Below are positions 4,890-8,633 of a stretch of DNA of 34,144 bases, in pieces. A program made the translations under genes and the position numbers. This DNA is from Flavobacteriaceae bacterium. Its GTDB lineage: Bacteria; Bacteroidota; Bacteroidia; Flavobacteriales; Flavobacteriaceae. The stretch lies in assembly GCA_024643425.1 (NCBI GenBank), contig JAHEMY010000017.1, positions 1 through 34,144 of the forward strand, given 5' to 3'. The stretch's first letter is position 1. The number at the start of each line of letters is the position of its first letter. The notes under the pieces were generated by a model. The model searched no databases, was not told the origin of the DNA, and saw only the letters and a program-made list of their open reading frames with translations.

Positions 4890-6518
4890 TTAAACTTGAA
4901 TAACTCCGAGATTAAAGGGCTTTTCAATAGGAGCGTGATTCGCCGCTTCAATTCCCATCGAGATCCAGGTACGTGTTTGTAAAGGATCGATAATAGCATC
5001 GGTCCAAATACGAGCCGCTGCATAATAAGGCGATATTTGTTCGTCGTAACGCGCTTTGATGCGATCGTATAGTTCTTGCTCGACTTCAGGGGTGATGGTC
5101 TCTCCCTTCTTTTTCAAGGAAGCTGTTTCAATTTGAAGCAGCACTTTTGCAGCACTGTTTCCACTCATTACCGCCAATTCGGCGCTTGGCCAAGCTACAA
5201 TAAGTCGGGGGTCGTAAGCCTTCCCACACATGGCATAGTTTCCGGCACCGTAAGAATTTCCAATCACAATGGTAAACTTTGGTACTACAGAATTGGCAAC
5301 GGCATTTACCATTTTTGCCCCATCTTTTATAATACCACCGTGTTCACTCTTACTGCCTACCATAAATCCGGTAACATCTTGAAGGAACACCAAAGGAATT
5401 TTTTTCTGATTGCAATTGGCAATAAAACGAGTGGCTTTATCGGCACTGTCGCTGTAAATAACACCTCCAAACTGCATTTCTCCTTTTTTGCTTTTCACCA
5501 TCTTTCGTTGATTGGCAACAATTCCCACAGCCCATCCATCGATACGGGCATACCCGGTAAGGATGGTTTTCCCGTAGCCTTCTTTATATTCTTCGAATTC
5601 GGAATCGTCCACTAAGCGCTTTATCACTTCGAGCATGTCGTATTGTTCTGCTCTCGACTTGGGAATAATACCGAAAATTTCTTCTTGTTTTTCTTTCGGG
5701 GGAGTCGATTTTTCTCGGTTGTATCCCGCTTTGTCGTAATCACCTATTTTAGAGACAATGTTTTTAATCTTGTCCAGGGCATCTTTATCGTCTTTGGCTT
5801 TATAATCGGTAACGCCGCTAATTTCACAATGTGTGGTCGCACCTCCCAAGGTTTCATTGTCGATGGTTTCCCCGATGGCGGCTTTTACCAAATAACTTCC
5901 TGCAAGAAAGATACTTCCAGTTTTATCCACAATAAGAGCCTCATCACTCATGATGGGTAAATACGCTCCTCCGGCCACACAACTTCCCATCACGGCTGCA
6001 ATTTGGGTAATACCCATGCTGCTCATCACTGCATTGTTTCTAAAGATACGTCCGAAGTGCTCTTTATCGGGAAAGATCTCGTCTTGCATTGGCAGATAAA
6101 CGCCTGCACTATCTACGAGGTAGATAATGGGTAATCTATTTTCAATTGAAATTTCTTGTGCCCTTAAGTTTTTCTTTCCGGTAATGGGAAACCAAGCACC
6201 TGCTTTCACCGTTGCATCGTTGGCAACCACAATACACTGCTTTCCCTTCACGTAACCAATCTTCACCACTACACCGCCGCTGGGACAGCCTCCATGTTCT
6301 TTATACATGCCGTCACCGGCGAAAGCACCTATTTCGATGGAAGGTTTTTTCTCGTCCAATAAATACGCGATACGCTCACGAGCTGTCATTTTACCTTTGG
6401 CATGATGTTTTTCGATGCCTTTAGTGCCTCCACCTAATTTGATTTGGGTGAGTTTTTTACGTAAATCGGATAAAAGTAATTTGTTATGATCTTCGTTTTT
6501 ATTGAAGGTAAGGTCCAT
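4890..6518 (-). CDS. Acyl-CoA carboxylase beta (carboxyltransferase) subunit, methylcrotonyl-CoA-type
   Basis: A 542-residue carboxyltransferase subunit of a biotin-dependent acyl-CoA carboxylase. It shows the two crotonase-like halves: KMTARERIAYLLDE near residue 45, then DSAGVYLPMQDEIFPDKEHFG and MGSCVAGGAYLPIMSDEA in the N half, and LQDVTGFMVGSKSEHGG and GNSYGAGNYAMCGKAYDPR in the C half. The FPDKEHFGRIF and GSCVAGGAY segments look more like methylcrotonyl-CoA carboxylase beta (leucine breakdown) than propionyl-CoA carboxylase beta, but I would not fix the substrate. It carries no biotin domain, so it needs an alpha subunit encoded elsewhere; none is in this window. It has its own -7 box. 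Length is normal for the family. Confidence 0.92.
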   Translation of the reverse strand: MDLTFNKNEDHNKLLLSDLRKKLTQIKLGGGTKGIEKHHAKGKMTARERIAYLLDEKKPSIEIGAFAGDGMYKEHGGCPSGGVVVKIGYVKGKQCIVVANDATVKAGAWFPITGKKNLRAQEISIENRLPIIYLVDSAGVYLPMQDEIFPDKEHFGRIFRNNAVMSSMGITQIAAVMGSCVAGGAYLPIMSDEALIVDKTGSIFLAGSYLVKAAIGETIDNETLGGATTHCEISGVTDYKAKDDKDALDKIKNIVSKIGDYDKAGYNREKSTPPKEKQEEIFGIIPKSRAEQYDMLEVIKRLVDDSEFEEYKEGYGKTILTGYARIDGWAVGIVANQRKMVKSKKGEMQFGGVIYSDSADKATRFIANCNQKKIPLVFLQDVTGFMVGSKSEHGGIIKDGAKMVNAVANSVVPKFTIVIGNSYGAGNYAMCGKAYDPRLIVAWPSAELAVMSGNSAAKVLLQIETASLKKKGETITPEVEQELYDRIKARYDEQISPYYAAARIWTDAIIDPLQTRTWISMGIEAANHAPIEKPFNLGVIQV

Positions 6519-6542: not shown

Positions 6543-6585
6543 CGAAATGCCCTGCAATGACACCTAAAATGTGCGATTATTTACC

Positions 6586-6593
6586 GATATTTG
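6586..6593 (+). promoter_or_regulatory. Near-match -7 box (GATATTTG) just before the structured element
   Basis: GATATTTG differs from TAnnTTTG only at the first base. A start 6-8 bases downstream would fall at 6599-6601, exactly where the structured GC-rich element begins, so the element could be the 5' end of the transcript for the downstream small membrane protein and ettA. Tentative. Confidence 0.3.
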
Positions 6594-6601
6594 CCCTAAA
6601 C

Positions 6602-6679
6602 CGCGTTAGGGATTGAGGCAGGTACCGTGTACCACCGAAAGCCCGGCCCTAATCCCGAGTACTCGGGAGGGGGAACGCC
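6602..6679 (+). repeat. GC-rich structured intergenic element (GCGTTAGGGATTGA...GGGAACGCC type)
   Basis: This 78-base stretch is much richer in G+C than its surroundings and is full of complementary arms. GCGTT (6603-6607) pairs with AACGC (6674-6678), closing the whole element. GGTAC (6621-6625) pairs with GTACC (6629-6633) around a 3-base loop. CCCGAGTACTCGGG (6654-6667) is a perfect 14-base palindrome. GGGATT (6609-6614) can alternatively pair with AATCCC (6651-6656). From memory, the GCGTTAGGGATTGA start, AAGCCCG middle and GGGAACGCC end occur repeatedly in intergenic regions of many Bacteroidota genomes, so I read it as one copy of an interspersed structured repeat or RNA. Whether it is transcribed and its role are unknown. 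It is easily mistaken for coding sequence. Confidence 0.55.
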
Positions 6680-6696
6680 AAAATGATACTATACAC

Positions 6697-6876
6697 ATGA
6701 TGAATAAAAATACCGTATTGGCTTGGGCTACTTTTATAATGATTATTGTTGGGTGCGCTTTAATTGCCATGGGCGCTTTTAGATACGACGATGTTGCCGG
6801 ATGGGGCTTTGCCTCGGTGGGCATTGGCTTTTTTGCCATTGCCTGGGTGTTTAATGCGCTCAAAGGACGTGTTTAA
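6697..6876 (+). CDS. Small two-helix membrane protein (CAL67264-family-like)
   Basis: A 59-residue protein starting with two adjacent ATGs (6697 and 6700; either may be used). The frame stays open upstream to 6613, but that part translates the structured repeat and has no membrane or protein-like character, so I start at 6697. Two hydrophobic helices are visible: about residues 7-24 (VLAWATFIMIIVGCALIAMG) and about 33-51 (WGFASVGIGFFAIAWVFNAL), joined by a short charged loop FRYDDVAG, with a basic C-terminus KGRV. I recall a short flavobacterial membrane protein family with the same MNKNTVLAWATF start, named CAL67264 in NCBI annotation. No function is known. It lies 65 bases before ettA on the same strand. 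Confidence 0.8.
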   Translation: MMNKNTVLAWATFIMIIVGCALIAMGAFRYDDVAGWGFASVGIGFFAIAWVFNALKGRV

Positions 6877-6941: not shown

Positions 6942-8633
6942 ATGTCGGACGATAAGAAAGTAATCTTCTCCATGTCCGGGGTGTCAAAAACGTATCAAAA
7001 CGCGCAGACCCCGGTATTAAAAAATATCTACCTCAGTTTTTTCTACGGAGCCAAAATTGGAATTTTAGGACTCAATGGTAGTGGAAAATCTACCTTGCTT
7101 AAAATCATCGCCGGCTTGGATAAGAACCACCAAGGGGATGTTGTGTTTGCTCCCGGGTATACGGTGGGTTATTTGGAGCAGGAGCCACTATTGGATGAAT
7201 CCAAAACAGTGCTTGATATTGTTAAGGAAGGAGTACAAGAGGTGGTCGATATTCTAGATGAATATAACAAGATTAACGATATGTTCGGACTTCCGGAGGT
7301 GTATGAGAATCCGGACAAGATGGACGAACTTATGGCAAAACAGGCCAAGCTTCAAGACAAAATTGATGCGACCAATGCCTGGGAACTGGATACCAAATTG
7401 GAAATTGCCATGGATGCCCTTCGTACGCCGGATGGCGATACTCCTATAAATGTTTTATCTGGAGGGGAGCGCCGCCGCGTTGCCTTATGCCGACTGTTGT
7501 TGAAAGAACCCGATGTCTTGTTGTTGGATGAGCCTACCAACCACCTCGATGCCGAAAGTGTACATTGGTTGGAACATCATTTAGCACAGTACAAAGGAAC
7601 TGTTATTGCCGTTACGCACGACCGTTATTTCTTGGATAATGTAGCCGGATGGATCTTAGAGTTGGATCGAGGAGAAGGAATTCCTTGGAAAGGGAATTAT
7701 TCGTCTTGGTTGGAACAAAAATCCAAGCGTCTAGCACAGGAGCAAAAACAGGCAAGCAAGCGTCAGAAGACCTTAGAACGCGAGTTGGAATGGGTTCGCA
7801 TGGCACCCAAGGGGCGTCAATCGAAGCAGAAGGCCCGTTTGAACAACTATGAAAAATTAATGAGCCAGGACCAAAAGCAATTGGACGAGAACCTGGAAAT
7901 ATACATCCCTAACGGTCCGCGTTTAGGGACCAACGTTATTGAAGCCAAAGGCGTTGCCAAGGCATTCGGTGATAAGCTCCTTTACGACAACCTAAATTTC
8001 AAATTGCCTCAGGCAGGGATTGTTGGGATTATTGGTCCGAATGGCGCCGGTAAAACTACCATTTTCAAAATGATCATGGGGGAGATCGAGCCCGATAAAG
8101 GAACTTTTGAAGTAGGCGATACAGCTAAGATTGCTTATGTGGACCAGAGTCATTCGAACATAGACCTGGAAAAAACCATTTGGCAGAATTTCAGCGACGG
8201 ACAAGAATTGATTATGATGGGTGGCCGCCAAGTAAATTCCAGGGCGTATCTAAGTAGGTTTAATTTCTCCGGAAGTGAACAAAATAAGAAAGTATCGATG
8301 CTTTCGGGAGGGGAGCGTAACCGACTCCATCTGGCAATGACCCTAAAAGAAGAAGGAAACGTGCTCTTGCTCGATGAGCCAACCAACGATTTGGATGTAA
8401 ATACGTTGCGTGCCTTGGAGGAGGGATTAGATAACTTTGCGGGATGTGCCGTTGTAATTAGTCACGACCGTTGGTTCTTAGACCGAATCTGTACGCATAT
8501 TTTGGCTTTTGAAGGAAATAGTGAAGTGTATTTCTTTGAAGGAGGATTTAGCGATTACGAAGAGAATAAAAAGAAACGTTTGGGTGGCGATATCATGCCT
8601 AAACGAATTAAATACAAGAAGCTTATTCGCTAA
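6942..8633 (+). CDS. ettA: Energy-dependent translational throttle protein EttA (ABC-F ATPase)
   Basis: A 563-residue ABC-F protein with two ATPase domains and no membrane segments. Domain 1 has Walker A GLNGSGKST (43-51), signature LSGGE (172-176) and Walker B LLLDEPTNHLD; domain 2 has Walker A GPNGAGKTT (365-373), LSGGERNRLHL and LLLDEPTNDLD. Between them lies the basic helical linker (WLEQKSKRLAQEQKQASKRQ onward, about 245-325) that contacts the ribosomal P/E sites in this family. The opening VIFSMSGVSKTYQ and the QSHSNIDLEKTIWQNFSDG region fit EttA rather than Uup or antibiotic-protection ABC-F proteins. EttA gates the 70S initiation complex in response to the ATP/ADP ratio. Its TAA overlaps the ATG of the HAD gene (TAATG), so the two are translationally coupled. 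Confidence 0.95.
   Translation: MSDDKKVIFSMSGVSKTYQNAQTPVLKNIYLSFFYGAKIGILGLNGSGKSTLLKIIAGLDKNHQGDVVFAPGYTVGYLEQEPLLDESKTVLDIVKEGVQEVVDILDEYNKINDMFGLPEVYENPDKMDELMAKQAKLQDKIDATNAWELDTKLEIAMDALRTPDGDTPINVLSGGERRRVALCRLLLKEPDVLLLDEPTNHLDAESVHWLEHHLAQYKGTVIAVTHDRYFLDNVAGWILELDRGEGIPWKGNYSSWLEQKSKRLAQEQKQASKRQKTLERELEWVRMAPKGRQSKQKARLNNYEKLMSQDQKQLDENLEIYIPNGPRLGTNVIEAKGVAKAFGDKLLYDNLNFKLPQAGIVGIIGPNGAGKTTIFKMIMGEIEPDKGTFEVGDTAKIAYVDQSHSNIDLEKTIWQNFSDGQELIMMGGRQVNSRAYLSRFNFSGSEQNKKVSMLSGGERNRLHLAMTLKEEGNVLLLDEPTNDLDVNTLRALEEGLDNFAGCAVVISHDRWFLDRICTHILAFEGNSEVYFFEGGFSDYEENKKKRLGGDIMPKRIKYKKLIR

Follow-up and report, generated by a model that had tools for sequence, protein, structure and literature searches.

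The described family closest to the sequence studied here is the Flavo-1 RNA motif (Rfam RF01705), which Weinberg et al. (2010) named without giving it a function in the part that concerns it (PMC2864571). Rfam files Flavo-1 as an sRNA, and a review counts it among the sRNA families of highest abundance without giving a function (PMC9029176). According to the lines on this family in a further source, some Flavo-1 matches lie in transcribed 5′ regions and many lie outside transcribed regions (PMC9723704). In the open-licence literature we found no published function for Flavo-1 or for the element described below, no description of Flavo-1 as mobile, and no mention of the string GCGTTAGGGATTG.

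The second group for comparison is that of the REP-type repeats, associated with RAYT (TnpA-REP, Y1 HUH) transposases. In the relevant part of one study, these repeats are short, folded, intergenic and multi-copy, and are found in either orientation (PMC6006769). For the transposase genes of Bacteroidetes subclass 2.6, the same part mentions “atypical” structures alongside the genes, with copies elsewhere, and subclass 2.6 is said there to be without the GT[AG]G foot as well (PMC6006769).

Here we analyze one intergenic spot in a stretch of 34,144 nucleotides from a Flavobacteriaceae bacterium (contig JAHEMY010000017.1 of assembly GCA_024643425.1), referred to as the window. An earlier sequence-only reading had proposed that a switching RNA, perhaps a transcribed leader, lies at this spot. 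On balance, we think it likely that the spot is instead one copy of a short non-coding interspersed repeat of the Bacteroidota, homologous to Flavo-1, that spreads as DNA.

Structure of the element

The features of the locus are collected in Table 1. Window positions 6603-6679 fold into a three-way junction with an interrupted stem, GGG.TT..GG / CC..AA.CCC (P2), whose 5′ strand presents in order GGG, an A.G mismatch, two Watson-Crick pairs, a G.A mismatch and a short stem. The closing stem, the inner hairpin and the perfect 14-base palindrome (CCCGAGTACTCGGG) on which the sequence-only reading was built are all confirmed in the sequence. The consensus of the element starts GCGTTAGGG. An attC-like site was considered as well; compared with an attC site, the GTT and AAC boxes stand here in the reversed order.

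Table 1. Features of the element and its surroundings, in window coordinates
Feature	Position	Strand	Evidence or remark
Acyl-CoA carboxyltransferase-type gene	4890..6518	-	PF01039, E 9.9e-148; divergent from element
-7-like promoter box CGATATTTG, outside element	6585..6593	+	conserved at homologous loci of downstream gene
Element of the dispersed family, Flavo-1 relative: GCGTTAGGGATTG ... AAAGCCCG ... AACGCC	6603..6679	+	77 bases
Closing stem P1, 5′ strand GCGTT	6603..6607	+	partner 6674-6678
P2, 5′ strand of interrupted stem	6609..6618	+	covariation, alignment rows
Hairpin 1, short variant GGTAC-CGT-GTACC = GGTACCGTGTACC	6621..6633	+	fold
P2, 3′ strand CCGAAAGCCC	6635..6644	+	fold, covariation
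Hairpin 2	6647..6673	+	holds 14-base palindrome 6654-6667
Closing stem P1, 3′ strand AACGC	6674..6678	+	fold and covariation
CAL67264 family membrane protein gene	6697..6876	+	NCBIfam NF040514, 119 bits; 5′ UTR holds element
ettA-like ABC-F ATPase gene	6942..8633	+	TIGR03719, 921 bits

Folded by RNAfold on their own, the 77 bases adopt the family fold. As RNA it reaches -32.1 kcal/mol (z -1.7, with 15 of 200 shuffles equally good), and as DNA the window copy gives z -2.6 (3 of 200 shuffles equally good). When the upstream flank is included, a hairpin between CCCTAA (6594-6599) and TTAGGG (6606-6611) displaces the closing stem; this is a chance pairing. Taken alone, the window copy is structured just modestly above chance, and it is the comparison across copies that secures the structure.

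For this comparison we use an alignment of 36 distinct copies (A2), which were gathered by model search and fitted to the model structure, six of the rows having also been used in building the model, so that A2 is biased towards it. In A2, 82.2% of the cells pair, against 69.7% in shuffles; both sides change at 17 of the 23 pairs, and the covariation is 0.272, against 0.083 when shuffled. None of 500 shuffles attains any of the five measures, and slid partners are at most 46% paired. The covariance search over the Bacteroidota that had been suggested as a check thus finds stems that do covary. P1 is 100% paired, both sides change at three of its five pairs, and the innermost of these is T-A in 19 copies, G-C in 16 and A-T in one (n = 36). 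The second inner pair of P2, inside what appears to be an internal loop, is T-A in 26 rows, A-T in 5, G-C in 3 and unpaired in 2, and the adjoining A.G and G.A mismatches are seen without exception in all 37 of 37 rows. The pairs of hairpin 1 score poorly in A2, since that alignment mixes long hairpins with short ones. Mismatches in hairpin 1 comprise 79 A-C and 5 G-T; because A-C dominates, which we read as probably one recurrent mismatch, these counts were not used as a test of strand. In another alignment (A1) the covariation is weakened, most of its rows having been collected with an exact pattern. The three-way-junction fold is conserved across the family. Hairpin 2 is variable in sequence, yet self-complementary in most copies, with a stem of at least three pairs in 101 of 105. 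In four copies (L028, L042, L088, L124) a second palindromic repeat, CTCTCC...GGAGAG in type, expands hairpin 2 to approximately 65-80 bases, and it looks as if other repeats enter the hairpin tip.

Distribution and relation to Flavo-1

An exact pattern made from the ends of the element occurs at 115 loci in named genomes, 19 of them in a single metagenome-assembled genome, and every title is from the Bacteroidota. Of 116 pattern matches, 110 copies (105 distinct) could be delimited at their ends; the six without an end by the rule were left out of later counts. Sampled copies range from 58 to 141 bases. We built a covariance model, R1, on 40 copies, the window copy among them, so that the 60.2 bits scored by the window copy hold by construction. 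Of 296 Bacteroidota genomes, 42 have an R1 match, as do 25 of the 30 listed genomes of the host's family (host counted); because scoring was limited to 15 candidates in each genome, copy counts from this search are lower bounds. The sequence-only reading had placed these ends in many intergenic regions of the Bacteroidota, and in this it was right. In stretches chosen away from known copies, we find 5 copies in 720 kb (G138), 6 in 360 kb (G276) and 1 in 380 kb (G183), which extrapolate to roughly 24, 58 and 11 copies per genome. One query each of plasmid records and of phage records gave no match. Four contigs filed as viral in IMG/VR (L382-L385) each have a consensus copy of the element. In two genomes a Bacteroidales small SRP RNA (L219 459-564, L220 119-224) lies approximately 0.9 and 1.3 kb from an element.

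The host genome, in which the earlier reading had looked to further copies as a check, holds at least four in total: C65 (the window copy), C195, C79 and C102. The C195 copy lies antisense between trpB and trpA. The four copies differ strongly in sequence; in their RNA folds all four nevertheless form P1, the GGG/CCC stem and hairpins 1 and 2, with z values of -1.7 (window), -0.7 (C195), -4.1 (C79) and -3.2 (C102), the C195 fold, taken singly, being not above chance.

The Rfam model of Flavo-1 scores above threshold at the same place as the R1 element in 18 of 36 loci (12 of 20 and 6 of 16). In the window, an Rfam scan gives no match, Flavo-1 with its gathering threshold of 42 bits included, and at E-values up to 1 there is no Flavo-1 match at the loci of C195, C79 and C102 or of five related copies. 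On the host genome the Flavo-1 model has no match among the 150 of 521 candidates scored, a result that is weak alone, since control genomes gave none either. The fold of the window copy has the Flavo-1 layout (three pairs, a single mismatch, two pairs, an internal loop and a hairpin), and the interrupted stems are alike, ccG-A-UuG ... AaAGCgg in Rfam and GGG-A-TTG ... AAAGCCC in the window, both with a variable hairpin. Like the window element, Flavo-1 belongs to the Bacteroidota, is multi-copy and has no described function. However, besides the interrupted stem the Rfam consensus has a hairpin 1 that is longer, as in the type of copy that its model matches, whereas hairpin 1 of the window copy is short. 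The Rfam structure line also has neither the closing stem nor hairpin 2, both of which covary here. Judged by these comparisons of sequence, the window copy is homologous to Flavo-1 but falls below the Rfam threshold; it represents a variant with a short hairpin and is not a filed member. The recurrent ends had been called apparently undescribed; this holds for their function, on which we found nothing in print, but the family itself overlaps Flavo-1 (RF01705), already named in the part of the source that concerns it (PMC2864571).

Mobile DNA or functional RNA

We favor a non-autonomous mobile DNA repeat over a gene switch. Orthologous sites differ in the presence or absence of the element, all such comparisons being between species. 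Both trpB and trpA could be resolved in 15 genomes, the host counted (one further trp locus had no trpA match), and four of these have the element at the junction, antisense in the host (G000), G035 and G028 and sense in G040. Junctions free of the element measure 2-26 bases in seven genomes, and in four others there are spacers of 56-137 bases without an R1 match. The evidence at trpB-trpA suggests a favored target. The occupied junctions (L244-L247) show both orientations and come from different genera. In genus g57 of the host's family, with genomes chosen from best hits, one 5′ flank has the element in 3 of the 11 genomes looked at (the G410 copy is weak, at 23.6 bits and E 0.0017), and a second 5′ flank has it in 2 of the 9 looked at. 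Each empty site comes from a different species, and a single old insertion may account for all three of the antisense copies at trpB-trpA.

The copies show no preferred orientation to genes. Among the 83 that could be classified, 27 are sense, 29 antisense, 15 convergent and 12 divergent; the rest of the 110 lie at contig edges (14) or overlap an ORF call (13). The neighbor genes, which the earlier reading had proposed to check, encode diverse proteins, the commonest Pfam family accounting for 4 of 136.

The chief alternative is that Flavo-1 and the variant are functional structured RNAs, each copy being transcribed from a neighbor or from its own promoter, with the plus strand binding a protein or acting as an sRNA. 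We rate this as rather unlikely. The strong covariation and the purine mismatches fixed on one strand would be expected of such an RNA, and the Rfam class and the matches in transcribed 5′ regions agree with it, but the even orientation to genes (27 versus 29) and, in the part of the source on this family, the many matches outside transcribed regions do not (PMC9723704). Neither do the copies share an upstream promoter motif, a T-rich flank aside. The pairing in hairpin 2 also speaks against RNA. In 123 distinct copies there are 848 Watson-Crick pairs, 11 G-T, 8 A-C and 72 other mismatches, so that G-U is not commoner than A-C. In contrast, 24 tRNAs taken for comparison from the analyzed loci have 480 Watson-Crick pairs, 36 G-T and no A-C (Fisher p-value 4e-8 for the G-T share), a contrast to which the ARAGORN pairing rules may add. 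As the A.G and G.A mismatches are fixed, and the opposite strand would have T.C and C.T, one strand is probably the folded one. Together with the even orientation, these fixed purine mismatches point to folded single-stranded DNA. In the mechanism that we propose for the mobile repeat, the plus strand would fold as single-stranded DNA, a trans-acting enzyme would recognize the folded strand, and the repeat would spread as DNA, inserting between genes in either orientation.

Several results do not favor mobility. No mobilizing gene was found: for 136 of 197 ORFs flanking the copies, the 25 most frequent of 216 Pfam families include no transposase, and the lone ends in 1.77 Mb of loci give no autonomous long version and no transposase gene between ends. 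Among 107 copies there is no target duplication of fixed length. Flanking direct repeats have a mean of 3.1, against 2.9 when permuted, and reach 6-7 bases in 5 copies, against 1.5 expected (p-value 0.02). No replication-strand bias is seen in 45 copies from three genomes, with origin and terminus placed from skew (19 leading, 26 lagging; p-value 0.37). An outer stem formed with the flanks, which had been seen by eye in one genome, was rejected by permutation (mean 4.16 versus 4.06, 107 copies). Copies within one genome differ and their stems stay paired. In orthologous copies of G138 and G467, hairpin 2 is paired despite base changes, with one site changed almost throughout. Such upkeep, which a functional RNA would also show, could be due to selection after insertion or to replacement by another copy. 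It is because of the missing enzyme, the lack of a fixed duplication and of strand bias, and the upkeep of hairpin 2 that we retain the functional RNA at the strength given above.

The element as an insert in a 5′ UTR

A more specific possibility, closest to the sequence-only reading, is that the element is a cis-regulatory leader (a switch) of the CAL67264-family gene of the window. The element does lie downstream of a promoter-like box that is conserved, and ahead of the start codon. The box CGATATTTG, which we take to be the -7 box of the Bacteroidota, is found with no more than one mismatch in the upstream 200 bases at 25 of 26 homologous CAL67264-family loci (window counted), compared with 3 for a reversed control pattern. 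At 22 of the 26 loci it is kept without the element. A sense R1 element in this 5′ UTR occurs at three loci, the window (G000), G035 and G037, the last being a divergent copy (31 bits, L182 1370-1470); the other 23 have none there. Without the element, 18 of 22 loci have 30-45 bases from box to start codon (11, 53, 62 and 81 bases in the rest). With it, the distance is 106 bases in the window, 133 in G035 and 142 in G037, and when the element is subtracted, 29 (106-77), 55 and 41 (142-101) bases remain. The conserved box and these distances indicate that the box belongs to the downstream gene and not to the element, which is, by this layout, an insert in the CAL67264-family 5′ UTR. The box from which transcription of the element had been proposed to start is thus present, but it is not a part of the element.

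Since it lies between box and start codon, the element is probably transcribed here as a leader, and the layout suggests that this happens passively, adding approximately 77 bases. A transcribed leader is therefore a probable description of the window locus, but not of the family, as the other copies are not consistently leaders: elsewhere the element adjoins unrelated genes, and it takes no consistent sense position upstream of one gene class, as a riboswitch or leader family would. The switch fares worse. Its two competing sequences, GGGATT (6609-6614) and AATCCC (6651-6656), are present in the window copy, but AATCCC is found in hairpin 2 of none of the 110 relatives found by pattern, so that the competing pairing is private to the window copy and a switching RNA is unsupported. 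A regulatory leader thus seems improbable to us, even with the sense copies of G035 and G037 in the same 5′ UTR. That 3 of 26 loci have a sense copy could be due to a favored target, to a single old insertion or to a leader role that has been kept.

The other copies have no box in common: TAnnTTTG occurs at any single position in at most 2 of 108. Their upstream flank is T-rich between -16 and -10; 43% have G at -9, and TTG stands at -11 in 12 of 108. A promoter borne by the element was rejected, no upstream box being shared.

Comparison with transposase-associated repeats

Could the mobile repeat be a REP-type repeat moved by a RAYT transposase, such as those of subclass 2.6? It is a dispersed folded repeat of the Bacteroidota, and “atypical” structures with dispersed copies are mentioned for subclass 2.6 in the relevant part of the source (PMC6006769), but we hold this to be very unlikely. 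In 30 Y1 loci, which span approximately 1.5 kb on each side of the gene, a clear element is present in only two, approximately 1.4 kb (L134) and 1.0 kb (L146) from the gene, and no clear copy lies less than 900 bases from a Y1 gene. Nine Y1 genes inspected have other flanking repeats or none that is obvious. Searches for a Y1 gene gave nothing in the host and in 6 of 23 named element-bearing genomes; in the sample used for co-occurrence (32 of the 42 R1-positive genomes, host included, and 20 listed negatives), none was found in 8 of the 32, the single-contig G110 among them. A Y1 gene is present in 24 of these 32 genomes and in 11 of the 20 without the element (p-value 0.22). A Y1/RAYT partner was therefore rejected as an adjacent gene, and co-occurrence does not discriminate. 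Unlike REP repeats, the element has no GTAG/GGAG foot, the GT[AG]G foot being absent from its consensus; its three-way-junction fold is larger, no Y1 gene is adjacent, and some of the genomes that carry it gave no Y1 gene in the search.

With the ends of IS200/IS605 elements the repeat would have in common that a single-strand fold is likely the recognized form. The difference is that no transposase gene was found between the ends of the element; one IS200-type gene (L134) lies approximately 1.4 kb from a copy.

Other palindromic repeats, separate from the element family, occur at RAYT-type genes and at one trpB-trpA junction (L146, L158, L149, L162, L256); examples are GCGGATT...AATCCGCGC and GACCTCACAGG...CCTGTGAGGTC. 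In the region of an IS200-type gene (L137; 1467, 2008) a palindrome like AATCCCGTTAGGGATT occurs several times, and its sequence is similar to the first bases of the element.

A classical MITE of a DDE transposon, which would also be short and non-coding with complementary ends, and to which the 6-7-base flanking direct repeats (5 of 107 copies versus 1.5 by permutation) might be credited, is extremely unlikely, as the terminal complementarity is only 5 bp, the interior is conserved, the duplication length is not fixed and a longer gene-bearing version is absent among the lone ends.

Implications

The wider model, with the closing stem, hairpin 2 and the short-hairpin variant, catches copies that Rfam misses and sets the ends of the element; with defined ends, searches for insertion sites and for the enzyme become possible. 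It is tempting, though we put this forward only tentatively, to see in Flavo-1 as a whole no family of RNA genes but a novel type of mobile element spread across the phylum: a gene-less single strand folded as a three-way junction, which would be moved by a non-RAYT enzyme and would repeatedly enter operon junctions and 5′ UTRs. If Flavo-1 is a mobile DNA repeat, there should be an enzyme, still to be discovered, that acts on a folded three-way junction, and the annotation of many Bacteroidota “sRNAs” would change.
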